NCBI GenBank assembly: GCA_000720535.1
Contig: JOAZ01000018.1
Coordinates: 83,112 to 147,111, forward strand
Origin: Streptomyces halstedii
GTDB taxonomy: Bacteria > Actinomycetota > Actinomycetes > Streptomycetales > Streptomycetaceae
Length of the DNA stretch: 64,000 bases
Direction: 5' to 3'
Below, in pieces: positions 17,244 to 50,749 of the stretch; the stretch's first letter is position 1, and every line of letters starts with the position of its first letter. Under the pieces are notes generated by a model, which was not told the DNA's origin, ran no database searches, and saw nothing but the letters and a program-made list of their open reading frames with translations. Position numbers and translations under genes: made by a program.

Positions 17244-17310
17244 GTCCACCTCGGCTCTTCCTGTCACGATCCAGCTCGCCCCAGCCGTGATACCAGGCTA
17301 GGTGGAGATC

Positions 17311-18686: not shown

Positions 18687-18692
18687 GGCGGT

Positions 18693-19166: not shown

Positions 19167-19304
19167 GTCCCTCGGAACGTAGCACTCGCTCGCAGAGCGA
19201 AGCCCGGCTTGCCACCTTTGTCCGGATCGACAGTCTGTCGCTTTACGCCGACCGCCACTCGTCCGGAGGCTGGACGTCCAGCCCGATTTCAGAGGAGCAC
19301 GTCG

Positions 19305-20138: not shown

Positions 20139-20316
20139 ACTCCTGCGTACAACACGACTTCGCCGCAGGCGCACTCCCCGACGGCCTTACTCAGCCCAAA
20201 TCCGCCCGGATGAGCGAGACGTGGCCTTCGGCCTCGCACTAGCCGGCCGAAAAACACCACCGCTCCCGGGTGGTGACGGAATTTAGCCGCCCTTGTCGGG
20301 CCAAGAGAGGGAGCTG

Positions 20317-28814: not shown

Positions 28815-28939
28815 CAGCACCGCATCCCGATCCCAGACCCCACGGACCAGGCAACTTCGCCAGCCTGCTCGTCCGGCACTAGACCCCGAGGCCCGACCGG
28901 GCCCCGGCATCCCGTACCACCCACTCCAAGGAGGCATGC

Positions 28940-29125
28940 ATGACCGCCATCCAGACCGAAAAGCCGACCGCCCCCGCCCCGGCGGACCTCGTGAAGACCG
29001 ACGACGACCCGTTCGGGCTCGACATCACCTTCATCGAGGGCACGCCGGCGACCGAGACGGTCCTGATGTGCAGCACCGGCGACACCTGCGGCAGCTCCTG
29101 CCCCAGCGCCTGCACCACTTCGTAA
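28940..29125 (+). CDS. lanA: FxLD-family lanthipeptide precursor (LanA)
   Basis: The ATG at 28940 follows AAGGAGG. The 61-aa peptide has an acidic leader with the signature PFGLDITFIE (FxLD motif, residues 25-33) and a Ser/Thr/Cys-rich core, CSTGDTC then GSSCPSACTTS. Cys44, 50, 54 and 58 with neighbouring Ser/Thr can form up to four (methyl)lanthionine rings, and Asp48 is the only acidic core residue in the ring region. It is followed by dehydratase, cyclase and an FxLD-system methyltransferase, which defines a class I-like FxLD lanthipeptide cluster. Leader cleavage probably occurs near residues 33-36. Confidence 0.9.
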   Translation: MTAIQTEKPTAPAPADLVKTDDDPFGLDITFIEGTPATETVLMCSTGDTCGSSCPSACTTS

Positions 29126-29149
29126 GCCGGATCACCCCGGCAACGCGGT

Positions 29150-29174
29150 CCGGACGGGGGTTCTACCCGTCCGG
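29150..29174 (+). terminator. Attenuator hairpin between lanA and lanB
   Basis: CCGGACGGG and CCCGTCCGG form a perfect 9-bp GC stem around a 7-base loop, 24 bp after the lanA stop and 40 bp before lanB. No U-tract follows. The position is typical of partial terminators or stabilisers that keep precursor mRNA in excess over enzyme mRNA in RiPP operons. Confidence 0.65.
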
Positions 29175-29214
29175 CCCGCCCCGCCCGCCACGCCAGAAGA
29201 CGAGGAGAGCCCTG

Positions 29215-32321: not shown

Positions 32322-32358
32322 TTCCCAAACCTTCCACCTTGCAAGGAGTTTCCTACTT

Positions 32359-34408: not shown

Positions 34409-35548
34409 ATGATCCCCGCGATAGCCAGCCGCATCCCTCTGGTCCTCCGGACCAAGGCGCCCGCGCTCCCCTTGGACGAGCGCATCAACCACCTCGCCGG
34501 GCTGACCGTCGCACCCGCAGGTGCGAGCCACCACGACCTGGTGGCCCGCACCTGCGGGGTCCTCAACTACGCCGCGCTCATCATCTCCGACGTCGGCCTG
34601 CCCGACCTGGCCACCGACCTGTGCTGGCGCCAGCACCAAATCTTCGCCGACGCCGGACGCCTCAACGGACGGATCGCGGTCATGTCGCTGATGCCACTCG
34701 TCAACCTCTCCCGGATGCGGATTCGCGCTGGTCAAGGGGAAGCCGCCTACGACCTACTGGTCGGTCTCAACCAGGCCGCGCGGCACCGGGAGAAGACCGA
34801 AGTCGACGGCCGCAGCGTCGACCTCTCGGCTCTGACCGACACGGACGAGGACCACCGCGCGGTGTGCCAGGAGCTGTACATCACCCTGCTCGTGGACGGC
34901 GCCCGCGCCCTCGCCCGCATCGGACGGTGGACCGAAGCCGCGGACGCCATGGCTCAGCACCGCGGCATCGGCAACCGGCTCCTCGACGGCCGCCAGATCA
35001 AGATCATGGCCTTGATGGAGCAGGGCCTGGACGAGCAGGCCCGCGCCCTGATCGACACCACCCAGCCCACCGAACCGTGGGAGGAAGCCGTCGCCCTCCT
35101 CCTGCACGCCCATTGTCAGCCCGCAGACGTCCCCGTGCCTGCACCCGACCTCGACCGCACCCTGGAAGAGGCCCTCCAACTCCTTGACCTCCCCGATCCG
35201 CCGACCGCCGCTTTCCAGACCCGGGTGGGCCTGTCAGCCCTGGAACTCGACCGCACCGGACGCCATACCGCACGCATCCTCGACTGCCTCGTCGGCGTCG
35301 CCCGACTCGACGCCTACGCCGCACGGGAAGCGCTGCACCACCCACTCGCCGCGTCCGCCCTGGACGACCGCGCGACAGACGAACTTCACGCAGTGATCAC
35401 CATGGCGGGACTGGAATCCGGAGTCCTCTCCGCCTGCCACCACGAGGCACTGACGAGCACGGTCCACTACGCCGAGACAGAGTTGGAGAACCTGCTGCAG
35501 GCTGCACACGATGCCGGCGCCTGTGCAACACCGGAGTCCGCCCGATGA
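34409..35548 (+). CDS. Helical-repeat protein, function unknown
   Basis: This 379-aa protein begins 4 bp after the methyltransferase stop. It is almost entirely helical, with TPR-like pairs (DLATDLCWRQHQIFADAGRL; ALARIGRWTEAADAMAQHRG) and no membrane or DNA-binding motif that I can identify. The stop overlaps the start of the GntR-like gene (ATGA). Position suggests a partner in the lanthipeptide or downstream operon, perhaps a regulatory TPR protein, but this is inference. Confidence 0.65.
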   Translation: MIPAIASRIPLVLRTKAPALPLDERINHLAGLTVAPAGASHHDLVARTCGVLNYAALIISDVGLPDLATDLCWRQHQIFADAGRLNGRIAVMSLMPLVNLSRMRIRAGQGEAAYDLLVGLNQAARHREKTEVDGRSVDLSALTDTDEDHRAVCQELYITLLVDGARALARIGRWTEAADAMAQHRGIGNRLLDGRQIKIMALMEQGLDEQARALIDTTQPTEPWEEAVALLLHAHCQPADVPVPAPDLDRTLEEALQLLDLPDPPTAAFQTRVGLSALELDRTGRHTARILDCLVGVARLDAYAAREALHHPLAASALDDRATDELHAVITMAGLESGVLSACHHEALTSTVHYAETELENLLQAAHDAGACATPESAR

Positions 35549-36669
35549 CAAAGAAGTCCACGCACCCCGTGGAGTTGGAGACCGTCCTCAGCCTTCTCCT
35601 CCGGAACCAGATCAGCACCGGTGACTGGCCCGCAGGCACCGCCCTGCCCCTGCGTCTCCTCGCAGAGCGCTACTCGACGGACAGGCGCACCATGCGGCGG
35701 GTCCTTGACGCACTGGCCGCGGACAGCCTCGTCGAACGGAGCAGCCGCGGATGGCTGTCCATCGGCATGACGAAGGCGCTCTCCCCGCCGCCGTCGTCGG
35801 CGGACACATCACCCGCCAGACGCGCCGCGGCCGGCTCGCCCCTAGGTGTACCGGACAGCGTGGCAGCGAAGGCCCGGCGGATTGAGGGCATTCTGCGCCG
35901 TCGCCTGGAGGCAGGGGAGTACCCCCCTGGTTCCCATTTCCCCAGACAGGCCGACCTCTGCGCCGAGTTCTCCACGTCACAGACACCGGTCTCCATGGCC
36001 GTGCGGGCCCTCGCCGAAAACGGCCTGCTGGTCATGGGAACCGGGGGGCGGCCAACGGCGGTCGTCACCCCGTTGCCCGGCACGCCGCAGGCGCCTTTGC
36101 CGCTCCTGACGGGCGGTGAGCAGGACGCCGCCCACCGGTTGCGCACGTATATACATCTGCACAAATGGCGGCGGGGGGACCTCTATCAAGCCAACTCGGT
36201 CGCGGGCTTGGTGCCCGGCATCCCGGTGTACATGGATCTGCGGAATGTCCTTGTGCATCTGCGGGAGGAGAACCTGGTCGAGTACCAGCCTCCGCTCGGA
36301 TGGCGTCTCAACGTCGCGGGCACGGGGTGGGAACTCCCGGCCGGATGCCCTCTCTTCTTCTACATCGACCGCGAACTGCGAGACCGGTTCCGCGCAGGCC
36401 GTTACGTAGAGGGCACCCGCCTCTCCGTGCGGCACCTCGCCTACGGATTCAGCGCGCCGCAGAGCCAACTCCGCCGAATTCTGCGGACGCTGGTCAGCGA
36501 CGGACTTCTGCAGGCCGTGGACGCCGGCCACGTCGCCACCGGCCGGACCGAACGCGAGCCACCCGCCCCACCGCCCCGCATCCACATCCCGGGGCCGCGA
36601 CTGGCGCTGCCCAAGCCCTTCGAAAGCCGCGCGCAGCCTAGCGCCATGACGAGGACATCCCCGCAGTGA
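35545..36669 (+). CDS. Regulator with four GntR-like winged helices in tandem
   Basis: This 374-aa protein contains two clear GntR-type winged helices (about 8-75: LLLRNQISTGDWPAGTALPL, LAERYSTDRRTMRRVLDAL; and about 108-172: LRRRLEAGEYPPGSHFPRQA, LCAEFSTSQTPVSMAVRAL). Two further, more divergent copies follow (about 190-250, LRTYIHLHKWRRGDLYQAN; and about 265-330, RELRDRFRAGRYVEGTRLSV). All share the Y/W-x-x-G/A-x-x-L-P/S pattern after the first helix. No effector-binding domain (FCD, UTRA or aminotransferase) is present. It is probably a DNA-binding regulator of this locus. Coupling to the helical-repeat gene suggests joint action. Confidence 0.75.
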   Translation: MTKKSTHPVELETVLSLLLRNQISTGDWPAGTALPLRLLAERYSTDRRTMRRVLDALAADSLVERSSRGWLSIGMTKALSPPPSSADTSPARRAAAGSPLGVPDSVAAKARRIEGILRRRLEAGEYPPGSHFPRQADLCAEFSTSQTPVSMAVRALAENGLLVMGTGGRPTAVVTPLPGTPQAPLPLLTGGEQDAAHRLRTYIHLHKWRRGDLYQANSVAGLVPGIPVYMDLRNVLVHLREENLVEYQPPLGWRLNVAGTGWELPAGCPLFFYIDRELRDRFRAGRYVEGTRLSVRHLAYGFSAPQSQLRRILRTLVSDGLLQAVDAGHVATGRTEREPPAPPPRIHIPGPRLALPKPFESRAQPSAMTRTSPQ

Positions 36670-36739: not shown

Positions 36740-37741
36740 ATGACCGTCACCGTGGACAAGTTGCCCCTGAGCCCGGTTCAGTTGAGGGCCATCACACTGC
36801 TGGCTGACGGCCTCGTGGACAAGGAGATAGCCGCCAACCTTCGGATGCCCCAGACCAAGCTGCGGCGGATCGTGCTGGAGGCCCGCAACGCCGTAGGCGT
36901 GGGCACCAACAGGGCCTTGGTGCACAGACTCCTGCAGGTCGGGCTGATCTCGCCCAGTGGCGCCCAGCGCGTGGACCCGGACGTCCTGACCCCGCTGCAG
37001 CGCAATGTGTGGCGGCTGCTTCCCATCGACGAGACGCAGTACTACCTGCCCGCCGTCATCGCCACCCGGCTCGGTCTGACCGCCGGGACGATCAGACCGG
37101 TGCTGGCTGCCATCAAGCGGCTAGCTGGGGTTGAGCTGCCGGCCTGCGTACGCATTGGGTACGAACTGGGCATCCTCGCCGACGACGACGAACTCGTCGT
37201 CCACCTGCCGATCACCCGCCGGAAACAGGTCCCGGTCCGTAGTACCTCGGCCCTCACGCCCCTCCCCGCTGCCACCCGCACACCACGACCCGCCCTGTTC
37301 GATCTTCTCCCCCGCGAGCTGGCCACCCTCAGCCCGGACCACACCGCGGTCCCGCCGGAGGCGCGGGTCCTGACCCTGCGCCTGCACGACGCCCGTGACC
37401 TCCTCGCCCGCATCGCCCCCACAGATGTAGGTCCCGCGATCATCGACCCGTACGCAAGGTGCGTCCGTCTCTTCCTCGCCCCCTCGACAGTCGGTGACGG
37501 CCGCCCGCAGTGCGGCAGCCTCGCCCGCCCCGACTACAAACCTCCACTGCCGCGGACCTCCGCCCCCTCCGGCGATACCGCCCACTGGCTACTCCCGCCC
37601 TACCTGGCGCCATGGGACTACCGCCTGCTCGCACCCGTGCTCGGCGACCTCAACACGTCACCAGCTCGACCCGCCTGCCCCGCCTCGGAGCGCGCACCAG
37701 GGCGGGGCAGGCCGTCGCCTCGCCTCAACGCCGTCGAGTGA
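36740..37741 (+). CDS. LuxR-type helix-turn-helix protein
   Basis: This 333-aa protein starts at ATG 36740. The N-terminus has a LuxR/GerE-like helix-turn-helix (LSPVQLRAITLLADGLVDKE, IAANLRMPQTKLRRIVLEAR, then VGTNRALVHRLL). The middle has a second helical segment (TPLQRNVWRLLPIDETQYYL) and the C-terminal third is Pro/Ala-rich. Unlike response regulators it has no receiver domain, and unlike LAL regulators it has no ATPase. It is probably a local activator or repressor. A second HTH-like element at about 75-125 is possible. Confidence 0.75.
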   Translation: MTVTVDKLPLSPVQLRAITLLADGLVDKEIAANLRMPQTKLRRIVLEARNAVGVGTNRALVHRLLQVGLISPSGAQRVDPDVLTPLQRNVWRLLPIDETQYYLPAVIATRLGLTAGTIRPVLAAIKRLAGVELPACVRIGYELGILADDDELVVHLPITRRKQVPVRSTSALTPLPAATRTPRPALFDLLPRELATLSPDHTAVPPEARVLTLRLHDARDLLARIAPTDVGPAIIDPYARCVRLFLAPSTVGDGRPQCGSLARPDYKPPLPRTSAPSGDTAHWLLPPYLAPWDYRLLAPVLGDLNTSPARPACPASERAPGRGRPSPRLNAVE

Positions 37742-37826
37742 CCAGTGCGAAGGAGCCCACCTACCTGATCAAGCCCCCCTGATCCCTGCCATTCGCCACT
37801 CGCCACTCGCCACCCAGGAGGCAACC

Positions 37827-39011
37827 GTGCACGCCGAGGACACCAACACCCGGGCTTGGCAGATCTATGGCCAGCGCCAACTCGCCCGCGCCTACACTCC
37901 TCCCGTACCCGACCGGCTCAGCTGGACGTCCTGGGAAGGTATTGGACCGGGAGCCGAGGTCCTCGGTGACGTCACCGGCCGCCGTGTCCTGGACATCGGC
38001 TCCGGGGCTGGCCACCACGCCGTCCACCTCGCCCAGGCACACGGAGCGCGTGTCACTGGCATCGAGTTGTCCGCGACGCAGTACGAACGCGCCGTCGGCG
38101 CCCACGCGGGCGTGGACGGCGCAGAGTTCGTCCAAGCCGACGTGACCGAGTACCTGGCCAGAACCGAGCCGTTCGACGCCGCGTACGCGATCGGAACCCT
38201 GGCCTTCATCGACCCACACCGCTCGCTGCCGGCACTGCGCGACGGCCTGCTTCCTGGCGCCCCACTGATCCTTTCGCTCCTGCACACCGACCTGCACGGC
38301 TGCGGTCCGTCCACCGAGGTCGCGCCCCGCGACCAGGTGATCCTGCTGCGCGACGACCCGCCCCTGCCGACGCAAATGTGGGTCCTGGCACCGCAACTGT
38401 GGGAGGACCTGCTCACCGAGTACGGCTTCCGCGTCGAGGCCATCGAACTGTTCCCGCACCACGACGAGAGCGCCTCGGTCATCCAGCAGCTCATCCGTGC
38501 CCGACGCCTTCCCGACCGGCCGGCGCGAGCCTCCAGCCGACCCCGCAGCACCCAAGCCCCGGCCGCCCACGCGGCAGTCGGCGTCGGAGCCATCCTGCTC
38601 AGCGAGCAGGGCATCCTGCTGGGCCGACACCACCGGGGCACCCTCGAACTGCCCGGCGGGAGCGTGGAGGCCCTTGGTGAATCCTTCGAGGACGCGGTCG
38701 TCCGAGAACTTGCCGAGGAAACCGGTCTGGTCGCTCGCACCGGCGACGTGGAACTGCTTGGCACGCTCGTCGATCAGGTCGAAGGCATCCTGCGGGTCAC
38801 CGTCGGCGCGCTCGTCCACGCCTGGCAGGGGCAGCCGGTCACACAGCCGGACGAGAACGTCGGCGACTGGGCGTGGTATCCGCTCGAACACCTCCCCGAC
38901 GGACTGTTCGTGTGCAGCGCCCAGATCCTCACGGCCTGGCGTCCCGACCTGCCCATCGACCATCCGCTGGCGCACTTCACCGCCTTCGCCCCTGCCAGTA
39001 GGCGCCGCTGA
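37827..39011 (+). CDS. Bifunctional SAM methyltransferase-NUDIX hydrolase
   Basis: The GTG at 37827 is preceded by AGGAGG at 37816. The 394-aa protein has an N-terminal class I methyltransferase (motif I VLDIGSGAGHHAVHLA, then GIELSATQY) to about residue 230 and a C-terminal NUDIX domain (about 250-390) with GGSVEALGESFEDAVVRELA followed by EETGL, a complete NUDIX box. I recall such fusions in other Streptomyces as a conserved architecture of unknown role. The two activities on one chain suggest a methylated nucleotide-linked metabolite. It is the first gene of the small-molecule run. Confidence 0.85.
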   Translation: MHAEDTNTRAWQIYGQRQLARAYTPPVPDRLSWTSWEGIGPGAEVLGDVTGRRVLDIGSGAGHHAVHLAQAHGARVTGIELSATQYERAVGAHAGVDGAEFVQADVTEYLARTEPFDAAYAIGTLAFIDPHRSLPALRDGLLPGAPLILSLLHTDLHGCGPSTEVAPRDQVILLRDDPPLPTQMWVLAPQLWEDLLTEYGFRVEAIELFPHHDESASVIQQLIRARRLPDRPARASSRPRSTQAPAAHAAVGVGAILLSEQGILLGRHHRGTLELPGGSVEALGESFEDAVVRELAEETGLVARTGDVELLGTLVDQVEGILRVTVGALVHAWQGQPVTQPDENVGDWAWYPLEHLPDGLFVCSAQILTAWRPDLPIDHPLAHFTAFAPASRRR

Positions 39012-39106: not shown

Positions 39107-40225
39107 ATGCCGCATCTCTCCACGCGCCGGTCCATGCTCTCGGACGGCGCAGTCGGCGCCGCCCGACTGCGCGATCTGGAGCAAGCTGCCCTGCGCCACG
39201 GAGTCCCCGTCGAGGACGTGCTATTAATCGCCGTCAACCTGTACGGAATCACCTCCGACCACGACCGGCACCGGGCCCGGGTCAACCTCCGGCTCGTACG
39301 ACGCCGCGACACTGCCTGGCAGATCATCGTCCCGCTGAACCAGCCGGCCAGCCCGTTCCGGCTCCGCGGCGACGAGCTGTCGCTGAACGGCTCGGTAGTC
39401 GCGCACGTCGAGCGCATCGACGCCGACGAGGCCGTCGGCGGGTACTTCCGCAACGACGGCCGGGCCGCGACCCTCAACCCCAACGCCCGAAGCCGGTGCG
39501 TCGGGTGCGGCTGGTGCCCGAACACCCTGGAAGCCGCCGCCGATCCGAGAATGCAGGAGGACCAGGGGCTCGATGACCTCCTACTGGCCCTTGGGGAGCA
39601 GCACCCACGTCGCAAACTGGCCGAGTTGGAAGAAGTCACCGTCTCCACCGGCTGCTTCGAGCGCGAGGGCGCCGCCGTCGCGCACCTGACCGCCCTGCGC
39701 CCCGCCCTGGAGCGTGCCGGCGTCACGGCCCGGATCGGCTTCCTCACCTCCGTGCTGCGCAGCAACGAGGCGTTCGAGATCATCGCGTCGCAGGTGTCGC
39801 CGTTCGTGCTCCGGCTGACGGCTGAGCACTTCACCCGGCGCGAGGCCCTCATGAAGGCCACCAAGGCCGACCTGCAGCCGGAGCAGATGCCGGACCTGCT
39901 GGCACGGGCGCGTAAAGCGGGGCTGGACACCTCGTACACGTACATCGTCGGCCTCGACCCGATGGAAGACCTTACCCGCGGTGTGAGCGAGCTGGTCGAC
40001 GAGGTCACCGCGTTCCCGAACATCCAGGTCTTCCAGGCACACAACCTGATCATGCAGGGGATGCGGACGCCAGGCGCGGAGAGCCTGGAGTACTACCTGC
40101 AGGCGCGCACGGCGATCGAGCGGGCCATGGCGCCGACCGGGCTGCGGCCGGTGGGCTGGGAGTGCTACCGGCCGCTGTGGTACTTCACCTACGCGGGAGA
40201 GGACCTCGTCGATGGGCTTCGCTGA
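39107..40225 (+). CDS. Radical SAM-like protein with CX2CX2C cluster motif
   Basis: This 372-aa protein carries three closely spaced Cys at 131, 134 and 137 (RCVGCGWCPN). This could ligate a 4Fe-4S cluster, although the canonical radical SAM spacing is CX3CX2C. The rest looks like a TIM-barrel fold with VTVSTGCFEREGAAVAHLTA, ARKAGLDTSYTYIVGLDPM and NIQVFQAHNLIMQGMR. An N-terminal segment of 110 residues precedes the cluster. The assignment is by overall pattern, so a different Fe-S enzyme remains possible. Leu40 is encoded by TTA (39224-39226), a bldA codon. The next gene starts within its last 14 bp. Confidence 0.65.
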   Translation: MPHLSTRRSMLSDGAVGAARLRDLEQAALRHGVPVEDVLLIAVNLYGITSDHDRHRARVNLRLVRRRDTAWQIIVPLNQPASPFRLRGDELSLNGSVVAHVERIDADEAVGGYFRNDGRAATLNPNARSRCVGCGWCPNTLEAAADPRMQEDQGLDDLLLALGEQHPRRKLAELEEVTVSTGCFEREGAAVAHLTALRPALERAGVTARIGFLTSVLRSNEAFEIIASQVSPFVLRLTAEHFTRREALMKATKADLQPEQMPDLLARARKAGLDTSYTYIVGLDPMEDLTRGVSELVDEVTAFPNIQVFQAHNLIMQGMRTPGAESLEYYLQARTAIERAMAPTGLRPVGWECYRPLWYFTYAGEDLVDGLR

Positions 40226-41261
40226 CCCGGTCATCGACCGGGTGAGAGTCGAGCGCCTCGACGAGAAGGTGGCGGGCCCGTGGGAGACCGGCGACAGCCA
40301 GTTCGCGGTGGCGGTCGAGTCCGGCGGGGTGGCCGGAGTGTTCGCTCCGGTCGACGAGTTGCCCGCCGCCTTGGTAGCCACCCGGCTCGGGCAGAGCGCT
40401 CTGCACCACCCGGTGGTAGACCACAACGGTCTGCTGCGCAAACTCCTGGGCGAACTCGGTCCGCACGCGGCGGGGCTCGGACGCTGGGCGGTCGGGGCGC
40501 TGGACTGCGCGGTATGGGACCTGCACGGGCACCTCGCCAGCCTCCCGGTCGCGGCCCTGCTCAGCGACCGTCCCGCAGGACAGGTGCCGGTCTACGCCTC
40601 CTGGCTCTCCCTGGACCTGACCGCGGCTTCGGCCGTCGAGTCGGTCAAGACCACCGCTGGCCAGGGGTTCGCCTTCACCAAATGGGCGCTGCGCGAGGCA
40701 GAAGCCGGCGAACTGGCACTGCTGGCCGAACGGGCTGCGCAGTGGGCGGGGCAGAGCGTGGCGGTCGACGCCCTGGGCACGTGGGGCTCCACCCGATCCA
40801 GGGAAGTTGCACGGCGGCTCACCCCGGAAGCCGTGCGCTGGGTGGAGGACCCACTCCCGCGGACCGATCTGGCCGCTTACACGCTTCTGCGCAGGCAAAC
40901 GAAAGGTCTACCGGTCGCGATGGGCGAGCGGCTGTCCTGCCTGGAGGAGGCCGCAGTCCTGCTGAGGCGATGCCGTCCGGAGGCGTTCACGTTCGACGCG
41001 GTGTGGTGCGGCGGCATCACCGAAGCGCGGGACTGGCTGGGTGTCGCTCACGATGCCGGGGTGCCCGTCCATCTGCACGGGCGGGCGTTCCTTCCCGCCG
41101 TGCACCTGGCCGCAGCCTTCCCTCACGCGGCGGGCGCGGTGGAGTACCAGGTGGTGTGGGAGCCACGCCGGCAGCGCACGCTGCGCGGCACGCTCCGGCC
41201 GGAGGGCGGGTATGTGGCCCTACCCGACCGGCCCGGTCTCGGGATGGAGGTGCGCCGGTAA
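40212..41261 (+). CDS. Enolase-superfamily enzyme (mandelate racemase/muconate lactonising type)
   Basis: This 349-aa protein has the capping-domain N-terminus and the modified barrel. Visible residues are Lys157 in FAFTKWAL (where the family has KxK), metal ligands Asp186 (VAVDALGTW), Glu212 (RWVEDPLP) and Glu239 (AMGERLS), and a late His pair (PVHLHGRAF). The second Lys of the usual KxK is replaced (KWA), so the specificity group is unclear. It would act by abstracting a proton alpha to a carboxylate. The gene overlaps the radical SAM gene and ends one base into the next gene. Confidence 0.85.
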   Translation: MGFADPVIDRVRVERLDEKVAGPWETGDSQFAVAVESGGVAGVFAPVDELPAALVATRLGQSALHHPVVDHNGLLRKLLGELGPHAAGLGRWAVGALDCAVWDLHGHLASLPVAALLSDRPAGQVPVYASWLSLDLTAASAVESVKTTAGQGFAFTKWALREAEAGELALLAERAAQWAGQSVAVDALGTWGSTRSREVARRLTPEAVRWVEDPLPRTDLAAYTLLRRQTKGLPVAMGERLSCLEEAAVLLRRCRPEAFTFDAVWCGGITEARDWLGVAHDAGVPVHLHGRAFLPAVHLAAAFPHAAGAVEYQVVWEPRRQRTLRGTLRPEGGYVALPDRPGLGMEVRR

Positions 41262-41710
41262 TGCCGAGGCACACAGGTGCGTTAATGGTCCGCGGACGAC
41301 TGGAGCGGCGCGAAGGAACCGTCCTGCTCGTCGTGGACGAGCGGCTGAGCGGACACGACACTTTCCTGTCGACAACTCTTCGCCTCGACCAGCCGGTGCG
41401 CCTGCCCGACCTCCCTGTCCGGATCCTTACATTCGACGACGTCACCGTCCTGGCACCCCTCGTCTCCGTCCTGCCCCAGTCGCAGGACGGCGAGGAGTGG
41501 GGCGGTACCTTGCTGATCCCGCACGGCACCCGCCCGCCAGCGATCCCCGACGACCTCGCCCAGGCCGCTGCCAAGGCCGGGGTCGACACCAGCAGCTGGT
41601 CGCCGGCCGAAGCCCGCCACCTGCTGACCTTCCTTAGCGAAGCTGGTTCCGGGCCAGTGCGCACCGAGCGGATCGGCCTGATCATCGCGGCTCTGGCGGG
41701 TCTGTCGTGA
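41261..41710 (+). CDS. Hypothetical protein with a bldA codon
   Basis: This 149-aa protein starts MPRHTGALMVRGRLERREG. The start shares one base with the preceding stop (TAATG). It is beta-rich at the N-terminus (VLLVVDERLSGHDTFL, LPVRILTFDDVTVLAPLV), with a short helical C-terminus. No family recognised. Leu8 is encoded by TTA (41282-41284). Tight packing between the enolase-like and HAD genes indicates a role in the same pathway. Confidence 0.7.
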   Translation: MPRHTGALMVRGRLERREGTVLLVVDERLSGHDTFLSTTLRLDQPVRLPDLPVRILTFDDVTVLAPLVSVLPQSQDGEEWGGTLLIPHGTRPPAIPDDLAQAAAKAGVDTSSWSPAEARHLLTFLSEAGSGPVRTERIGLIIAALAGLS

Positions 41711-42405
41711 ACGCAAGTGGGGTGCGGCTGGTGAGCCTCGATGTCGGATACACCCTGGGCGAGCCGTCAGGGACAACGCTGACGCAGCGCCTGGTGGAGC
41801 TGTCCCCGCTCCCGGCCCGTGAGGCGAAGCAGGTCGCCCAGCGGATCCTGCACGCCCTGGACCCGCGCCGTGATGCGGCGGGGCCGCAGACGGTGTGCGC
41901 CGCTCTGGGTCTCGCGCCGTCTGCCTTCCCCCACGACCACCACCCGCCTCACTTCACTCTGTGGCCCGGCGCGGTGGTGGCGGTGGCACGAATCGCCCGC
42001 ATCGTGCCAGTGGTCACCCTGTCGAACGTGAGCCACTGGGACGAGCGGGAGACCGACGTCGCCGCCCTTCTCGCCCCCCACCTCCGGGCCCACCACCCCT
42101 CGTGGCAGCTCGGGTTCACCAAGCCCGACCCACGCGCTGTGCAGACTGTTGCCTCGCTGCACGACCGTGATCCCGCGGAGGTGCTGCACGTAGGCGACAG
42201 CCTCGACTACGACGTGCGCGGCGCCCTCGCCGCCGGAGCCCAAGCTCTGTGGATCACCCCGCGCCCGCCGTCGGCCGAAGCCCTCCGGCTGCTGGCCGAG
42301 CACCCCGGGCGGGTCACGGTCGTGCCCGACCTCGCCCGCGCGGTCGGGCACATCGAGCAAACCGTCCTTCCGTCACCCCACACGATCAGGAGCACCACCC
42401 CGTGA
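41707..42405 (+). CDS. HAD-superfamily hydrolase with Asp-to-Gly change in motif I
   Basis: The GTG start overlaps the upstream stop. The 232-aa protein shows HAD motif I as VSLDVGYTLGE, motif II TLSNVSHW, the Lys in FTKPDPRAV and motif IV VLHVGDSLDYDVRGALAAG. In motif I the nucleophile Asp is present, but the residue two positions later, normally the acid/base Asp, is Gly. Such DxG variants occur, and phosphatase activity may be low or altered. The start of the next gene overlaps its stop. Confidence 0.85.
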   Translation: MNASGVRLVSLDVGYTLGEPSGTTLTQRLVELSPLPAREAKQVAQRILHALDPRRDAAGPQTVCAALGLAPSAFPHDHHPPHFTLWPGAVVAVARIARIVPVVTLSNVSHWDERETDVAALLAPHLRAHHPSWQLGFTKPDPRAVQTVASLHDRDPAEVLHVGDSLDYDVRGALAAGAQALWITPRPPSAEALRLLAEHPGRVTVVPDLARAVGHIEQTVLPSPHTIRSTTP

Positions 42406-43181
42406 GCCAGTTCGACACCACCGCCCCGTTCTACGCCGCCTACCGGCCCGGCATCCCGAAGGATGCCGTCGAGCTGCTCGCGCGGCGGGTGGCCGGCAAG
42501 GGGCACCCGGTCCTGCTCGACCTCGGGTCCGGCACCGGACAGGTCCCCCTCGCCCTGGCCGGGACGGTGACAGAGATCGACGTCGTCGAGCAGGACGCCG
42601 GCATGCTCGCCGAGGCAGACAAGGCGCTCGCCGGGCTGCCGGTCACCGTCCGCCTGCACAACGCCTCGGCCGAGCAGTTCACCCCGCGCTCCTCCACCCG
42701 GGCCGATCTCGTCACGGTCTGCCGCGCGTTCCACTGGATGGACCAGGAGGTGGTGTTGTCGCGTCTGGAGGGCATGACCGCGCCGGACGCGACCGTCGCG
42801 GTCATGGGCGACGGCAGCCTGTGGACCGCACGCACCGAGTGGACCGACGCCCTGCGGGACCTGATCCAGGAGTACCTGGGCGAGAAGCGTCGAGCCGGAG
42901 TGGGCAAGAAGTACGAGGCGCACGACCGGCCATACAGCGAGATCCTCGCCGAGTCCGCCTTCGGCCAGGTCGAGGAGCACACCATCGCCGTCGAGCGAGA
43001 GTGGACCACCGACACCGTGATCGGCTACCTGTACTCGACTTCCTTCGCCGCCCGGCCGCTGTTCGGCGAGCGAGTCGAGGACTTCGAGCGCCGTGCCCGA
43101 GCTCTGCTCGACAAGCACACCGCCGCAGGCGGGCTGATCGAGCACGCCTCCTTCCAGGTCGTCCTCGGCCAGCGCGGCTAA
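42402..43181 (+). CDS. SAM-dependent methyltransferase
   Basis: The GTG at 42402 overlaps the HAD stop (GTGA). This 259-aa class I methyltransferase shows motif I LLDLGSGTGQVPLAL, an acidic end of strand 2 (DVVEQDAGML) and the post-motif FHWMDQEVVL, resembling the Methyltransf_11/UbiE group that starts FDTTAPFYAAYRPGIP. Substrate is unknown; the neighbouring genes suggest a small polar metabolite. Confidence 0.88.
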   Translation: MSQFDTTAPFYAAYRPGIPKDAVELLARRVAGKGHPVLLDLGSGTGQVPLALAGTVTEIDVVEQDAGMLAEADKALAGLPVTVRLHNASAEQFTPRSSTRADLVTVCRAFHWMDQEVVLSRLEGMTAPDATVAVMGDGSLWTARTEWTDALRDLIQEYLGEKRRAGVGKKYEAHDRPYSEILAESAFGQVEEHTIAVEREWTTDTVIGYLYSTSFAARPLFGERVEDFERRARALLDKHTAAGGLIEHASFQVVLGQRG

Positions 43182-43199
43182 CCCGCTCCTCCCTCTACG

Positions 43200-43225
43200 C
43201 CGGGGCGGCCCACTCCCCGCCCCGG
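43200..43225 (+). terminator. Hairpin between methyltransferase and PhyH genes
   Basis: CCGGGGCGG and CCGCCCCGG form a perfect 9-bp stem with an 8-base loop. No U-tract follows. It may attenuate transcription inside the operon, since the next gene has its own strong ribosome binding site (GGAAGGAG). Confidence 0.5.
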
Positions 43226-43255
43226 CTGTCCCGTCCCTCCGGAAGGAGAACCACC

Positions 43256-44026
43256 ATGCCCCGACCTCAGACGTGGAGCGACTACGAGCGGCGCCGGTTC
43301 CTCGACGACGGCGTCCTCATACGCCGTGGCCTGGTCCACGGCGAAGTCCTGTCCCGGGCCCGTGACCTCGTCAGCGGCTGGTTAGCCGAGGCGTACGACC
43401 CCGCGCGGCTCACCGCCTACACCGAACGCAGCTTCGCCCCCGAGCTGGAGGAGCACCCCGGCCTCCTCGCCGTCTACCAGCACAGCGGCCTGGCGGAGCT
43501 GGCCGGAGATCTTCTGCGGCCTGCGAGGACCGCCCCGGTCACGCGGGCGCAGATCCAGATCCGGCTTCCGCACGGCGCGCAGCAGCCGGTGAAGCGGATG
43601 CACGTCGATGGCGTCTCCTGCCCCCACCTAGAACCCCGCGACCTGCGCACGTTCACCTTCATCGTCGGCGTCGTCCTGGACGGCAGCGCCACTGCGGACG
43701 CGGGCGCTCTGCACTACGTGCCCGGCGGGCACCACCAGATGGCCCGGTTTTTCGCCACGGACTGGGCTCTGGGTCAGCCGGCCCAGACCCCCGACGACAT
43801 CGACGCCCAGGACGGCACCGCCTTCACGGCCGAGCCCGGCGACGTGGTCGTGATGCACCACCTCGTCCCGCACCGGGTCGGCATCAACACCAGCAGCACC
43901 CCGAGGGTGATGGCGTACTTCCGCGTCCACCACGCCCAGCACACCGACCTTGCCCTGCGTGCCCTGTCGGACCCGTGGCTGGAGTACCCGGCGCTCGCCG
44001 ACCTCACCCGCCCCGGCACCGCGTGA
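43256..44026 (+). CDS. PhyH-family Fe(II)/2-oxoglutarate oxygenase
   Basis: This 256-aa protein from ATG 43256 (GGAAGGAG upstream) has the phytanoyl-CoA dioxygenase facial triad: His116-x-Asp118 in KRMHVDGVS and a distal His in VVMHHLVPHRVGIN, with LHYVPGGHHQMARF between. Such enzymes hydroxylate or halogenate small substrates and are frequent in natural-product clusters. Leu43 is a TTA codon (43382-43384). A second PhyH gene closes the operon at 46799. Confidence 0.85.
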   Translation: MPRPQTWSDYERRRFLDDGVLIRRGLVHGEVLSRARDLVSGWLAEAYDPARLTAYTERSFAPELEEHPGLLAVYQHSGLAELAGDLLRPARTAPVTRAQIQIRLPHGAQQPVKRMHVDGVSCPHLEPRDLRTFTFIVGVVLDGSATADAGALHYVPGGHHQMARFFATDWALGQPAQTPDDIDAQDGTAFTAEPGDVVVMHHLVPHRVGINTSSTPRVMAYFRVHHAQHTDLALRALSDPWLEYPALADLTRPGTA

Positions 44027-44041
44027 GAAAGGGAGAGCACC

Positions 44042-44695
44042 GTGGACGTCCTCATGCTCGACCAGCTCCCCGACGCTGCCCGGCTCCTGGCCGCCGGGCA
44101 GATGGTTGCCGTACCCACCTCGCGCTGGTACATGCTGTGTGCCCGCGCCGCCGACCCCGCCGCCACGAACGCGATCTCCCGCGCCAAGCAGCGCCCGAGC
44201 ACCAAGCCGCTGCTGCTCCTGCTCGACTCCCCGGCCACAGCCGAGGCCCTGTTCGACCTGAGCAATGACGCCTGCCTGCTGGTCGACGGTCTGTGGCCGG
44301 GAGACCTCGCGCTGCGCCTTCCGTGGAAGCCGGGCATCGAGACCATCGCGGTGACCGGGTCCCCGGCACTCGTCGGATGTCCGGACGGGTACCTGGGCCG
44401 CCTCGTCGCCCTGGTCGGCGAACCACTGGCCGCCGCCGTGTGCAGCATCTCCACTCCCGCCGCCGGCGAGACGGACCACCCGGCGCTCAGCGCCGCCCAG
44501 GTCACGGCCTTCGACCGGGTCACCGGGGCCGGGATCGCTGCGGTCGTCGACGGCGGGATCTGCCCGCACGGCCGGCACATGACCATCGTCGACTGCCCCG
44601 CGGGCACCGCAGCCCGCCTGGAGCGGGAAGGCACCGTCCACGCCCGCGCTGTCGAAGCCGCCCTCACTCCGGCCGGAGGATCACATGTGGGCTGA
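44042..44695 (+). CDS. YrdC/Sua5-like protein
   Basis: The GTG at 44042 follows AAAGGGAGA. The 217-aa protein matches the Sua5/YrdC fold: AVPTSRWYMLCARAAD, AISRAKQRPSTKPLLLLLDS, and LALRLPWKPG. Sua5/YrdC proteins bind ATP and make threonylcarbamoyl-adenylate for tRNA. Copies in biosynthetic clusters serve as carbamoyl-transfer or carbamoyl-adenylation modules. It starts just after a PhyH gene and overlaps the phosphoketolase-like gene by 11 bp, so a metabolic role is more likely than tRNA modification. Confidence 0.75.
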   Translation: MDVLMLDQLPDAARLLAAGQMVAVPTSRWYMLCARAADPAATNAISRAKQRPSTKPLLLLLDSPATAEALFDLSNDACLLVDGLWPGDLALRLPWKPGIETIAVTGSPALVGCPDGYLGRLVALVGEPLAAAVCSISTPAAGETDHPALSAAQVTAFDRVTGAGIAAVVDGGICPHGRHMTIVDCPAGTAARLEREGTVHARAVEAALTPAGGSHVG

Positions 44696-46802
44696 CCTCG
44701 CCCGCCGTTCGAACCGCCTGGTGCCCGACGTGTCAGTGGCCGCCGTCGCCGACGCCCTCGACTACCTCTGTCTCGCCCAGCTCTACCTACGCGACAACCC
44801 GCTCCTAGCCCGGCCCCTGGCCCCGGCCGACATCAAACCGCGACCGGCCGGCCACTGGGGGGTGTGCCCGCCCGTCAACCGGATGCTCGCCACCCTGGGC
44901 CCGCTCCAGGCGGCCGTCCCCGATGGCTACGAGCTGCACGTCCTGCACGGCGCCGGTCACGCCGGTCCCTCCGCCCTCGCCCACGCCTACCTCACCGGCC
45001 GGCTCGGCCGCGTCCATCCCGATCTGTCCCAAGGCGAGGCCGGGCTAGGCGAACTCGTCGCGGGCTTCCCCCGGGCCGACATCGGTGGGGAGATCACCCC
45101 GATGATCCCCGGCCACCTGCACACCGGAGGTCAGCTCGGGCCCGCCCTCGCGATCGGGCAGGGCACCGTCCTCGACGCCGCCCACCGGCTGTCGGTGGTC
45201 CTGATCGGCGACGGAGAGTGCGAGACCGGAACGACCGCCGCCTCCTGGCTCGCCACCCGCGCCCTGCACGGTACGGGCGACCACGGCACCGTCCTTCCCG
45301 TCGTCCTGCTCAACAGGATGCGCATGGGCGGGCCGAGTCTACTGTCCACCCTGAGCCGCACCGAACTCACCGCCTATTTCACCGGCCTCGGCCACCGGCC
45401 CGTCTACAGCGACGGCCTCGACATCGGCCAGCTCCGCCAGGCAGTGACCGAAGCCCTCGGCGCTGCCCAGCCCCTGGGCATTCCAGGGCCCTCCAGCGTC
45501 CTTGTGCTCACCCTGGTCAAGGGCCACGGCGCCCCCGCCCACCTCGCCGGTACCCAGGCGGTCCACAAGACGCCGCTGCGCGACCCGGCCGAAGTGCCCG
45601 CCGAGTTCGACGCGCTCGCCGACTGGCTGGCCTCCTACCAGCCCGCCCAGCTCCTGACCCCCAGCGGTCGGCCCCGGCCGCACCTACTGCCCGCGCTCCC
45701 CCTACCCCGGCCCGAACCCGCCGGCGTCCCGGCGCCGCGCGGGTGCGTCGCCGCCTCCACCCAGGTCGCCGCCCAGGCCGCCGGGCGCCCGTTCGCGCAG
45801 GTAGTCCCCGAGGTACTGCGAGCCCGCGCCGAGCAGGGAGCGTTCCGCTTGTTCAGCCCCGACGAGCTGGCCTCCAACCGCCTCGACCTCACCGACGAAC
45901 ACGGACGCCCGGCGCCGTGGGCGGTGGAAGTCCTCAGCGAGGAGCTGTGCCACGCCTGGGCCCAGGGCTACACGGAGACCGGCCGGCACGCGCTCGTCGC
46001 CACCTACGAGGCGTTCGCGCCAATCACCCTCAGCCTCATCCAGCAGCAGCTCAAGCACCGGGCGGTGCGCCAGCACGCCGGGCTCGCCCCGCTGCCCAGC
46101 CTGGTCTACTTCCTGACCAGCCTGGGCTGGCACAACACCCTCACCCACCAGAACCCCAGCCTCACCACGGCACTTCTGGCCAGCGGCGACCCCACGCTCC
46201 ACGTCCTCACCCCCGCCGACCCCGCGCGTACCGCCGCCGGCCTCACCTTCGCCCTGCGCAAGCTCGACCGGTGCACGATCGTCGTCGCCGGCAAGCACAC
46301 TGCCGTCCAGCACCCGCTGGAGACCGTCGAAGAGGAATTGCGGCACGGGATCGCGATCTGGCCTCACCTGACCCACCCCGGCGGCGGCGAGCCCGACCTG
46401 ATCCTCGCCTCCGCCGGCGACCTGCCCGCCGAGGCCCTGACCACCCTCGCCCGGCGACTGCGCGCCGACCGCCCCGGCCTGCGCCTTCGGTACGTCCATG
46501 TCCACGACCTCACGGCCCTAGCCGAAGACGGCACCCGCCCCCTGGCCCTCGCCCCGGACGCGTTCGCCCTGCATTTCGGCACCCGAGCGCCGATCGTCCT
46601 GGCCACCAGCGGGCACTCCGCCGACATCCACGTTCTCCTCGGCCGCCGCCACCCCGGCCCCCGGCTCACCGTCCTCGGCTACCGCGACCCCGGCCGTCCC
46701 GTCTCCCAGGAACACCTCCGCCGACTCTGCGGCCTCGACGACGCCGGCCTGTGGCAGCTCTCCACCACCCTCGCCGACACCCTGAAGGAGATACCGGTAT
46801 GA
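44685..46802 (+). CDS. Phosphoketolase-family thiamine-diphosphate enzyme
   Basis: This 705-aa protein begins at ATG 44685, after GGAGG inside the upstream gene. The N-terminal half matches phosphoketolases: HWGVCPPVNRMLATL, LHGAGHAGPSALAHAYLTG, ITPMIPGHLHTGGQLGPALA, and the thiamine-diphosphate motif GDGECETGTTAASW. The rest follows the phosphoketolase middle and C-terminal domains but at about 700 aa is shorter than the usual 780-820. Classical enzymes cleave xylulose 5-phosphate to acetyl phosphate. In a biosynthetic cluster it may act on another ketose or supply a two-carbon unit. The stop overlaps the next start. Confidence 0.88.
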   Translation: MWADLARRSNRLVPDVSVAAVADALDYLCLAQLYLRDNPLLARPLAPADIKPRPAGHWGVCPPVNRMLATLGPLQAAVPDGYELHVLHGAGHAGPSALAHAYLTGRLGRVHPDLSQGEAGLGELVAGFPRADIGGEITPMIPGHLHTGGQLGPALAIGQGTVLDAAHRLSVVLIGDGECETGTTAASWLATRALHGTGDHGTVLPVVLLNRMRMGGPSLLSTLSRTELTAYFTGLGHRPVYSDGLDIGQLRQAVTEALGAAQPLGIPGPSSVLVLTLVKGHGAPAHLAGTQAVHKTPLRDPAEVPAEFDALADWLASYQPAQLLTPSGRPRPHLLPALPLPRPEPAGVPAPRGCVAASTQVAAQAAGRPFAQVVPEVLRARAEQGAFRLFSPDELASNRLDLTDEHGRPAPWAVEVLSEELCHAWAQGYTETGRHALVATYEAFAPITLSLIQQQLKHRAVRQHAGLAPLPSLVYFLTSLGWHNTLTHQNPSLTTALLASGDPTLHVLTPADPARTAAGLTFALRKLDRCTIVVAGKHTAVQHPLETVEEELRHGIAIWPHLTHPGGGEPDLILASAGDLPAEALTTLARRLRADRPGLRLRYVHVHDLTALAEDGTRPLALAPDAFALHFGTRAPIVLATSGHSADIHVLLGRRHPGPRLTVLGYRDPGRPVSQEHLRRLCGLDDAGLWQLSTTLADTLKEIPV

Positions 46803-47677
46803 GCACCCCGCTCCCGCCTGTCGCCCCGGACGCCGACACCACCGACGCCTTCGAGCGCGACGGGTACGCGATCATCCGCAATGCGATTACCCCGGATCTA
46901 CGCGACCGGCTCCTGACCGCAGCCGAGAAGCTGCTGACCAGCGACATCACCCAGGGCCGTGACCAAGGAGGGGACGGCAAGCGCGGATTCCGCGGATGCC
47001 TCAACCTGGACCCCGCCTTCCTCCCGCTCCTCGCCAACCCGAACGTCCTGCCCACTGTTGTCCAGCTCCTCAGTCCGAACATCCACCTGCTGTCCGCCCA
47101 CCTCATCGCCCTGCCCAGCGGCCCGCCCCGCACCATCCGCATCCCCGAGCGCCACGGCTGGCACCGCGACATGTACGGCGTCACCGCGGACCTCGGCTTC
47201 CCGAGCACCCCCCGGATGGCAATCAAGGCCGCCCACTACCTCACCCCCATCACCCCTGACTGCGGCCTGACCATGTTCCTTCCCGGCAGCCACCGCCTCA
47301 CCGAAGAGCCCGTCGTCCCCGCCGGCGCCATCGACCCGCCCGGCGCCATCACCCCCGACATCACCGGCACCGACGCGGTCCTCTTCGAGAACCGGACCTG
47401 GCACACCGGAGGGATCAACCTCTCCGGTCTGCCCCGCATCGCTCTGATGCTCCAGTACGGATACCGCTGGCTCCACCCCGTCGACGACCCCGCGACCGAC
47501 CTCCGGAAGGACCCTGCCCTCGCCCCGATCGAGCAGCAGCTCCTGGGCCTGCCCGACCGCCACCTGGACGGATCTCTTGCCAAGGGCAGGGGAGCCGCCC
47601 CCATCCGCTCCTGGTGGGAGAGCGCGCCATGGACTCCCAGGTCGGCCCAGCGCTGCTATGTCGAGCGTTCGAGGTAA
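46799..47677 (+). CDS. Second PhyH-family oxygenase
   Basis: The ATG at 46799 overlaps the phosphoketolase stop (ATGA). The 292-aa protein has DAFERDGYAIIRNAI near the start, HxD in HGWHRDMYGV, CGLTMFLPGSHRL and the distal His-Arg segment ENRTWHTGGINLSGLPRIAL. This is the classic PhyH organisation of Fe(II)/2-oxoglutarate hydroxylases. It shows only distant similarity to the PhyH at 43256. It is the last gene of the small-molecule run. Confidence 0.88.
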   Translation: MSTPLPPVAPDADTTDAFERDGYAIIRNAITPDLRDRLLTAAEKLLTSDITQGRDQGGDGKRGFRGCLNLDPAFLPLLANPNVLPTVVQLLSPNIHLLSAHLIALPSGPPRTIRIPERHGWHRDMYGVTADLGFPSTPRMAIKAAHYLTPITPDCGLTMFLPGSHRLTEEPVVPAGAIDPPGAITPDITGTDAVLFENRTWHTGGINLSGLPRIALMLQYGYRWLHPVDDPATDLRKDPALAPIEQQLLGLPDRHLDGSLAKGRGAAPIRSWWESAPWTPRSAQRCYVERSR

Positions 47678-49372: not shown

Positions 49373-50749
49373 GTGAAGAAGCGTATCGGGTCGTACCCGC
49401 GTGTCCGCGCTGAGGGCGGCGGTCGCGGGGTGGTCTCGCAGGCGGGGGCCGTGCTGCTGGTGGAGACGGTCCGCAAGTCCGGTCTGGACCAGGCGATATC
49501 GACGGCACTGGCGCCCTGGCGGAAGTCTCGGACGGTGCACGATCCCGGCAAGACGGTGCTGGATCTCGCGCTCGCGGTCGCGCTCGGCGGCGACTGCCTC
49601 GCCGATACCGCCATGCTGCGGGCCGAGCCCGGCGTGTTCGGGCCGGTGGCCTCAGATCCGACGGTCTCCCGGCTGATCGGCACCCTCGCCGCCGGCCAGA
49701 ACCGTGCGCTGACCGCGATCCGCCGGGCCCGCGCTCACGTCCGCGAACACGTCTGGCAGTTGGCCGGCGACAAGGCGCCGGACGCCGACGGGCAGGTGAC
49801 CGTGGACCTGGACGGTGTCCTGGTGATCTCCCACTCCGACAAGCAGGACGCGGCCGCCACCTGGAAGAAGACCTACGGGCACCACCCGCTGATGGCATTC
49901 GTCGACCACGGCACCGGCGGGTCCGGCGAGCCGGTGGCCGCTGTCCTGCGGCCCGGAAACGCAGGCAGTAACACCGCCACCGACCACATCACCACTACTC
50001 AACTGGCCCTGGCCCAGCTACCGAAGACCTACCGGCGAGGCCGGCGGACACTCATCCGCACCGACTCCGGCGGCGGTACCCACGAGTTCGTGGCCTGGCT
50101 TGCCCAGCGCGGCCGGTGGCTTTCGTACTCGGTCGGCATGACCATCACCGACGCCATCCACCAAGCAGTACTGAAGGTCCCGGCCCCGGCCTGGACGCCG
50201 GCCGTCGAGCCCGGCGGCGACATCCGTGACGGCGCCTGGGTCGCCGAGATCGCCGGTGACGTGCTGAACGGCTGGCCGAAGGGGATGCGGCTGATCGTAC
50301 GGAAGGAACGGCCACACCCCGGAGCCCAGTTGCGGATCACCGACGCCGACGGCCTGCGGATCACCTGCTTCGCCACCAACACGGCGAACCTTTCGATCGC
50401 CGCACTCGAACTGCGGCACCGCCAACGCGCGCGGGCCGAGGACCGCATCCGGGCCGCCCGCGCCACCGGACTGCGCAACCTGCCCCTGCACGACACCGCG
50501 CAGAACCAGATCTGGCTGGAGCTCGTTCAGATCGCCCTCGACCTGCTCGCATGGATGTCCATGCTCGCCCTGACCGGCGAAACCCGCAGGTGGGAACCCC
50601 GCCGCCTGAGGCTCCGCCTCTTCTCCGCCGCCGCGCAGATCGTCACGACCGCCCGCCGCCGGCACCTGAGGTTCGCACGCCACTGGCCCTGGACCGACGT
50701 GATCACCAAAGCCCTGGCACGGCTCGCCGCCCTCCCGAACCCCGGCTGA
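49373..50749 (+). CDS. IS1380-family transposase
   Basis: This 458-aa DDE transposase has the IS1380 N-terminus (MKKRIGSYPRVRAEGGGRGV), first Asp in VTVDLDGVLVIS, second Asp in LIRTDSGGGTHEF and the insertion domain characteristic of the family. The terminal Glu lies in the C-terminal helical half. The reading frame is intact and the element has both ends, so it may still be active. Confidence 0.92.
   Translation: MKKRIGSYPRVRAEGGGRGVVSQAGAVLLVETVRKSGLDQAISTALAPWRKSRTVHDPGKTVLDLALAVALGGDCLADTAMLRAEPGVFGPVASDPTVSRLIGTLAAGQNRALTAIRRARAHVREHVWQLAGDKAPDADGQVTVDLDGVLVISHSDKQDAAATWKKTYGHHPLMAFVDHGTGGSGEPVAAVLRPGNAGSNTATDHITTTQLALAQLPKTYRRGRRTLIRTDSGGGTHEFVAWLAQRGRWLSYSVGMTITDAIHQAVLKVPAPAWTPAVEPGGDIRDGAWVAEIAGDVLNGWPKGMRLIVRKERPHPGAQLRITDADGLRITCFATNTANLSIAALELRHRQRARAEDRIRAARATGLRNLPLHDTAQNQIWLELVQIALDLLAWMSMLALTGETRRWEPRRLRLRLFSAAAQIVTTARRRHLRFARHWPWTDVITKALARLAALPNPG

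Follow-up and report, generated by a model that had tools for sequence, protein, structure and literature searches.

What could be made by nine tightly packed genes whose enzyme set, according to a preliminary description of this DNA, fits no known pathway? The genes, named A to I here, lie on the forward strand of a 64-kb stretch of a single contig (the window) from the 7.7-Mb genome of Streptomyces halstedii, and fill positions 39107-47677 exactly. On balance, they probably represent a family of biosynthetic operons whose genes are inherited together and which leads to a small non-peptide metabolite, with a sugar phosphate or a sugar acid as its probable origin. A literature search, which did not extend to MIBiG, preprints or most subscription papers, gave no paper describing the gene set among the matches listed, and the view that the enzyme set is without a described counterpart therefore stands within the literature searched. 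The operon family itself is real and conserved, contains unusual enzyme variants and is apparently undescribed within the searchable literature.

Evidence that the genes form a unit comes from their recurrence. With gene A alone as the query and one genome per species, at least 40 loci were retrieved, those nearest to the operon among the matches listed coming from Streptomyces. Among the 40 loci listed, 30 carry the cluster, and A, B, D, E and H were all detected in 29 of these; in the remaining cluster locus (L028) the contig ends before the position where E would come. H is shortened in L036, only remnants are present in four of the 40 listed loci (L033, L042, L044 and L047), and L037, L038, L040, L041, L043 and L046 hold distant relatives of A (23-29% identical) with no other cluster gene detected. 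The gene order of the window, A-B-C-D-E-F-G-H-I, is shared by L003, L008, L009, L010 and L032. A second order, A-H-B-C-D-E-creatininase-F-G, characterises L006, L007 and L011-L025, with hosts belonging to Streptomyces, Actinoplanes, Salinispora, Saccharopolyspora, Nocardia and Geodermatophilus. A third type is built with a GGDEF-like domain, N, which in several loci forms a fusion with C, and with the PhyH-type enzyme I (PhyH2), and is devoid of F and G, which encode a first PhyH-type enzyme (PhyH1) and a YrdC-like protein. In a Nocardia type, N is accompanied by two further radical S-adenosylmethionine (SAM) genes (L005 at 16844-18944, L029 and L039; in L005 one of them matches PF04055 above and the other just below the cut-off), and L005 and L029 also have a second methyltransferase in the cluster.

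The pair F and G is present in 20 of the 30 cluster loci listed and the N family in ten, with zero overlap. The N domain retains GGDE and resembles diguanylate cyclases; those PDB matches of its profile that have informative names are GGDEF, diguanylate cyclase and response-regulator entries, the others being uncharacterised proteins and one ribosomal protein. In L017 and L023 an ATP-grasp-like gene separates F from G, and in the archaeal locus L026 described below one separates F from B (Pfam matches below the cut-off only). We considered whether the GGDEF-like gene and the creatininase might correspond to GTP cyclohydrolase III and formamide hydrolase of the archaeal riboflavin/F420 type; this idea was set aside, though not disproved. 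The N family and creatininase co-occur in none of the 30 cluster loci, and only L026 pairs a creatininase with a different GGDEF gene. Pairwise identities of seven cluster genes correlate with r = 0.71-0.96 (host phylogeny not corrected for), and since the gene order varies between the groups, more than a conserved piece of chromosome is involved. The preliminary description had seen an operon-like unit and proposed a search for the same gene set with synteny in other genomes; indeed, the set recurs in several orders, and its core in 29 of the 40 loci retrieved with A alone. By this comparison, the shared core comprises A, B, D, E and H, usually together with C, and is completed by one of two branches. 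The carbamoylation and hydroxylation steps assigned to F and G look like one such branch of a shared pathway and not like part of its core, because 10 of the 30 loci have neither YrdC nor PhyH1 and carry a GGDEF-like gene instead.

In the window, the successive gaps from A to I amount to -14, -1, -4, -4, +74, +15, -11 and -4 bases, in agreement with the description of overlapping or nearly touching genes. Its enzyme families were recovered as well, most of them by Pfam (enolase-like 1.3e-34, HAD 1.4e-08, methyltransferase 1.9e-09, PhyH 8e-12 and 4.8e-14, YrdC 1.8e-17, XFP_N 9.5e-54) and the radical SAM enzyme by its predicted fold and weak matches of two relatives. A scan for promoters and terminators yielded nothing exceeding chance. 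Three of the nine genes contain a TTA codon, as had been noticed before, at codon 40 of A, codon 8 of C and codon 43 of F. Outside the operon, one of 28 gene-like open reading frames (ORFs) of the window has one, a comparison restricted to the window and to a crude choice of ORFs that picked five of the nine operon genes, the operon being counted separately. TTA codons occur in two to four of the nine genes in the same-order loci L003, L008, L009, L010 and L032, at varying positions of which two are common to the window and L008; three of nine other-order loci checked are free of them (L014, L018 and L020). Control of the operon by bldA through these codons is probable.

Within the genus, A was found in 20 of 295 sampled genomes, the source included (14 matches span almost the entire model, one spans 307 of its 362 positions and five are fragments), and in a sample of the phylum in 3 of 396, again including the source genome. 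Eight plasmid records match A, seven of them over at least 80% of its length; phage records gave no match to A. Six plasmid loci, out of 216 matching records, were fetched through H with a flank of at least 10 kb, and five of the six contain the core. A mycobacterial plasmid carries a smaller version, N-A-B-HAD-H, with a major facilitator superfamily gene and a methyltransferase on the other strand. The sixth plasmid locus (L084) is without the core; its phosphoketolase-like region at 9971-12151 matches H piecewise at 33-40% identity, and other cluster genes were not detected within about 10 kb. The TTA codons, the scattered presence, the plasmid copies and the relic fragments together fit specialised metabolism.

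Which chemistry could the core perform? Gene A (39107..40225) encodes a protein for which neither Pfam nor NCBIfam contains a model matching above chance, PF04055 included (none at E<=1). The A protein of L005 has no PF04055 match either, and two other relatives match it weakly, below the curated cut-off (2.6e-4 in L004 and 1.8e-5 in L038). An alignment of 36 relatives revealed three invariant cysteines spaced CX2CX2C, corresponding to C131, C134 and C137 in the window; this motif is present in 44 of 44 gathered A sequences and follows the strand at 120-123 of the structure model. The canonical spacing of radical SAM enzymes is CX3CX2C. In the AlphaFold2 model (mean predicted local distance difference test score, pLDDT, 84.5), a barrel follows an N-terminal domain of about 130 residues. 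The partial triosephosphate isomerase (TIM) barrel of the superfamily was found in this model, and its best Foldseek matches are radical SAM enzymes, the best ones in the PDB being lipoyl synthase, MiaB, biotin synthase (BioB) and HydE, with template modelling (TM) scores that reach 0.46 when normalised to the query and 0.57 when normalised to the target length. Scores below 0.001 were likewise obtained for pyruvate kinase, an aldolase and a putative lyase, though with lower TM-scores, and a profile search of the PDB gave three matches at chance level. The likeness to lipoyl synthase, MiaB, BioB and HydE thus lies in the predicted fold, whereas the cysteine spacing and the extra N-terminal domain set A apart from them. 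On this structural model, A appears to be a radical SAM enzyme of a family without an existing model and with CX2CX2C spacing, and its original assignment stands.

Gene H (44685..46802) encodes a phosphoketolase-like thiamine diphosphate (ThDP) enzyme with XFP_N, XFP and XFP_C domains and the ThDP motifs. The patterns GHWG, GDGExET and HK[TVA]P are found in 35 of 35 H entries, which include two start variants of the one shortened gene of L036, and Y[ED][AGS]F in 33. While the domains and ThDP patterns are those of canonical phosphoketolases (PDB 8io8, 3ai7 and 3ahc), H is only about one third identical to these and differs in its active-site loop, which reads WxN in place of WRQDHN. None of the 35 entries has WRQDHN; 33 have WxN, the remaining two being the L036 start variants, and WxN likewise appears in the H proteins of L019, L022, L070 and L078 outside this set. 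WRQDHN is present in four canonical plasmid enzymes and in the canonical copy of the source genome. In the alignment to PDB phosphoketolases, a three-residue gap in H lies opposite RQD. In the Synechococcus phosphoketolase, the active-site loop is reported to span V534-S546, with D538 and N540 contacting catalytic residues (PMC10365998). The gap corresponds to positions 536-538 of 8io8, the numbering of which agrees with that study, and N540 is retained. The other phosphoketolase encoded in the source genome is 35% identical to H, and H is a divergent extra copy beside it. With its shortened loop, H may take another substrate or acceptor, and the two-carbon origin that the phosphoketolase had suggested earlier is retained as one option only.

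Gene B (40212..41261) belongs to the mandelate racemase/enolase superfamily and is probably of the acid-sugar dehydratase type. Its metal ligands D186, E212 and E239 and the catalytic H289 are invariant in 14 of 14 aligned sequences (a selection of the 35 B entries plus L070, whose B has no Pfam match at E<=0.1). B shares these residues with the mandelate racemase and sugar-acid dehydratase family; its best NCBIfam neighbours are sugar-acid dehydratases, yet all 14 NCBIfam matches score far under their cut-offs, and identity among B relatives within the cluster family falls as low as 21%. Gene D (41707..42405) encodes a HAD-family hydrolase with DVGYT as motif I, the D-x-G pattern of which was found in 35 of 35 sequences, and gene E (42402..43181) a class I SAM-dependent methyltransferase according to Pfam. 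The product of gene C (41261..41710), 149 residues long, has OmdA-like relatives: 14 of 26 family members match OmdA at E<=1, the best at 1.9e-5; the window protein is not among them and has only a chance-level EccE match. Its model (pLDDT 79.6, predicted TM-score 0.54) combines a beta-rich N-terminal part with a helical C-terminal part and has no significant fold match in the PDB, the best reaching E 0.026; 2d9r, which we take to be a DUF1905 protein, ranks 28th with E 0.13. Missing from the per-gene sequence sets are D of L030 and C of L026, L030 and L045. The genes F (43256..44026) and I (46799..47677) encode the PhyH-type Fe(II)/2-oxoglutarate enzymes 1 and 2, both recognised by Pfam; in F, H116, D118, H206 and R217 are invariant in 12 of 12 aligned sequences (a selection of 24 plus L070).

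The operon might instead be catabolic and serve to break down an unusual sugar acid, with B dehydrating, H cleaving and D dephosphorylating. The sugar-acid dehydratases nearest to B, all far below cut-off, and the retained ThDP motifs of H are in favour of this view, but Pfam finds no kinase, aldolase, transporter or isomerase among the nine genes, and the TTA codons speak against catabolism. In addition, we know of no place in known sugar-acid catabolic routes for a radical SAM enzyme, a methyltransferase, two PhyH enzymes and a YrdC protein. We therefore regard a catabolic role as improbable.

The 217-residue product of gene G (44042..44695) is a stand-alone YrdC/Sua5-like protein with a PF01300 domain, in which K49 and R51 (KxR) are invariant in 14 of 14 aligned sequences, and it has PDB matches to threonylcarbamoyl-AMP (adenosine monophosphate) synthases. 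G shares these traits with TsaC/Sua5 and departs from them in a rewritten motif, PTxRWYM in the window: P[ST]xRWYM is present in 24 of 24 G sequences and PTET.YGL in none, where TsaC/Sua5 proteins have PT[ED]TxYG and the genome's own TsaC-like copy has PTDTVYG, and SANxSG is mostly missing (found by pattern in 2 of 24). The source genome has three YrdC-type matches besides G, which is a divergent extra copy beside them. A stand-alone YrdC-type enzyme makes a carbamoyl-AMP. In the natural-product O-carbamoyltransferases of the TobZ/GdmN type, a YrdC-type domain is fused to a Kae1-like transferase domain; G resembles them in the YrdC domain but lacks the second part, as PF01300 is its sole domain and no Kae1-like transferase domain was found in the other eight genes either (Pfam, E<=1). 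Without a Kae1-type transferase among the nine genes, a carbamate ester is not implied.

The kinship of G with threonylcarbamoyl-AMP synthases could also point to hypermodification of tRNA, DNA or a nucleoside, where a YrdC protein would act as in t6A, together with the radical SAM enzyme, the methyltransferase and a dioxygenase. In the Nocardia loci L005 (7865-8563) and L039 and in the remnant L042, a gene of the OMP-decarboxylase/HUMPS family lies upstream of A on the opposite strand, which would suit such a pathway. Hypermodification is nevertheless very unlikely: the nine genes include no Kae1/TsaD partner, 10 of the 30 clusters do without YrdC, and no hypermodification route known to us uses a phosphoketolase-like or an enolase-superfamily enzyme. 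The polyoxin/nikkomycin and malayamycin nucleoside clusters were also considered and rejected, with no search aimed at them, as none of the nine genes is seen to encode an enolpyruvyltransferase or a pseudouridine synthase.

The biosynthesis of a small non-peptide metabolite could proceed as follows. The chemistry of the core steps by A, B, H, D and E is taken from the established chemistry of their families. The shared core (A, B, D, E and H, usually with C) would build a common scaffold. A would modify a phosphorylated sugar, or a substrate resembling a nucleotide, by a radical reaction, B would remove water from an alpha-hydroxy acid by means of a metal and a histidine base, and H would carry out a ThDP-dependent carbon-carbon cleavage of a keto-sugar phosphate with altered handling of the phosphate. 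D would remove a phosphate and E add a methyl group. In the branch of the window, oxidation by F and I, as hydroxylation or desaturation, and a carbamoyl-AMP step by G would be added to the core scaffold. G would activate an amine as carbamoyl-AMP, from which ring closure may give a cyclic carbamate or urea; since no Kae1-type or transferase partner is present, the activated group would be captured within the molecule or by another enzyme. The small, polar, carbamoylated and hydroxylated product envisaged in the preliminary description is thus possible for the branch of the window, but those 10 of the 30 clusters that lack F and G would not arrive at it with these genes.

Several observations weigh against this biosynthetic reading. 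The order of the steps and the substrates are what we infer, the substrates being guessed from family names. Neither an exporter nor a resistance gene is found among the nine genes, and a catabolic use of B, H and D may count on the same side. The cluster is moreover hosted by actinobacteria and by one archaeal metagenome-assembled genome (MAG), in addition to the plasmid copies; with full versions in this MAG and in a distant actinobacterial genome, it reaches wider than a usual antibiotic cluster and would fit a cofactor or signal as well. The archaeal locus, L026, lies on a 258-kb contig of a MAG labelled Thaumarchaeota and contains D, E, a creatininase, H, A, a C candidate that aligns poorly, F, an ATP-grasp-like gene, B and G. 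Its guanine plus cytosine (G+C) content of 0.507 matches that of the flanks (0.493 and 0.521), and an ORF close by encodes a TFIIB repeat (6.9e-10), as would be expected of an archaeal TFB. It is therefore unlikely that L026 is simply a contaminating contig from an actinobacterium, although the caveat of binning stands for a MAG. The split between the branches is not absolute here, as L026 contains F and G and also a different GGDEF-domain gene overlapping the end of G (15427-16326, Pfam 4.3e-13), which was missed by the N queries and has a Cas10/Cmr2 palm match just below the cut-off. By carrying the marker domains of both branches, L026 slightly weakens the case for the biosynthetic reading given above and slightly strengthens that for a signal or cofactor. 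The distant actinobacterial version, L070, comes from another family of the phylum and reads creatininase-H-A-C candidate-F-G-ATP-grasp-like-B-D-E, with creatininase, HAD and methyltransferase confirmed by Pfam and B, C and the ATP-grasp-like gene, which have no Pfam match, recognised by alignment or by eye, the ATP-grasp-like gene by alignment only. The G+C content of this cluster, 0.596 between flanks of 0.683 and 0.697, suggests a recent transfer.

A hormone-like signal or an intracellular cofactor instead of an antibiotic-like compound would accommodate this reach, the lack of an exporter, the XRE-type and DUF397 genes near four of the plasmid copies, and the GGDEF genes in or beside some clusters. 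An essential cofactor is difficult to reconcile with the patchy presence within the genus and several relics, however, and a conserved receptor gene was not seen, so that we rate such a role as unlikely but worth keeping in mind. A broader proposal, which we put forward only tentatively and with more doubt than conviction, is that actinobacteria and at least one archaeon have a class of pathway in common. Its metabolite, of a new kind, would be assembled from a sugar phosphate by a radical SAM enzyme with CX2CX2C spacing and a phosphoketolase whose phosphate chemistry has been rebuilt, and would be finished by exchangeable branches based either on YrdC carbamoyl-AMP and PhyH or on a GGDEF-derived nucleotide-using enzyme, perhaps both in the archaeon.

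The operon family is of interest beyond its product. It recurs without a polyketide synthase or nonribosomal peptide synthetase gene among the nine, and rule-based genome mining may well miss clusters of this kind. Three of its enzymes depart visibly from their families, namely the CX2CX2C radical SAM enzyme, the short-loop phosphoketolase and the stand-alone YrdC protein with its rewritten motif. The exchangeable branches provide a direct comparative handle on the core product, and its presence in an archaeon prompts one to ask which purpose such a metabolite serves.

Does the operon belong to a larger cluster with the genes next to it? Directly upstream and on the same strand, at 28936-34404, lie lanthipeptide-type genes of the FxLD type, encoding the N-terminal part of a LanB, a LanC-like protein and the C-terminal part of a LanB fused to a PCMT methyltransferase. 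The nine genes might accordingly tailor the product of this cluster, the more so as radical SAM, creatininase and ATP-grasp enzymes are known from peptide pathways. Among the loci compared, all three lanthipeptide genes were found together only in L008, the A protein of which is 95% identical, while L009 has one match of 32% identity; no other locus has them at E<=1e-8 within the fetched flanks of up to 10-14 kb, some of which were shorter. A conserved association was thus not found, the lanthipeptide genes look like an unrelated neighbour, and a joint pathway is highly improbable. Between the two groups of genes, all on the forward strand, a GntR-type regulator whose single protein chain matches the GntR helix-turn-helix at three separate places (35545..36669) and a protein without a Pfam match (36740..37741) are possible regulators, each found among the fetched loci only in L008. 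They are followed by a methyltransferase-NUDIX fusion (37740..39011, start uncertain with an open frame from 37494) that ends 95 bases upstream of A. This fusion occupies the same place in L008, L009 and L010, was not found in L003 and L032, and is possibly an accessory gene; it also stands beside fragments of A in L044 and L065. Downstream of the operon, a transposase-like gene at 49373-50749 shares 35% identity with a transposase that is annotated as IS1380-family and lies near the L004 cluster.

The surroundings of the other loci offer further leads. The automatic choice of ORFs gave many wrong frames there and was used for leads and neighbour positions only. Some clusters of the second type (L018 at 18408-20927 and others) are close to a 315-residue protein without a Pfam match, seen in three loci, and to an amino-acid permease, identified by Pfam in L018 and by clustering in six loci. 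In L037 (608-3528), the distant A relative is accompanied by a methyltransferase-like ORF and by two ORFs resembling, by eye, the subunits of a ThDP-dependent decarboxylase. In L040, L041, L043 and L046, from MAGs of Patescibacteria and Bacilli/Erysipelotrichaceae, the A relative adjoins a GrpB-type gene (by Pfam in L040, L041 and L046, by clustering in L043). Histidine-phosphatase genes lie nearby in L043 and L046 (Pfam) and in L040 (by eye). These GrpB-adjacent radical SAM relatives possibly represent a separate small pathway.

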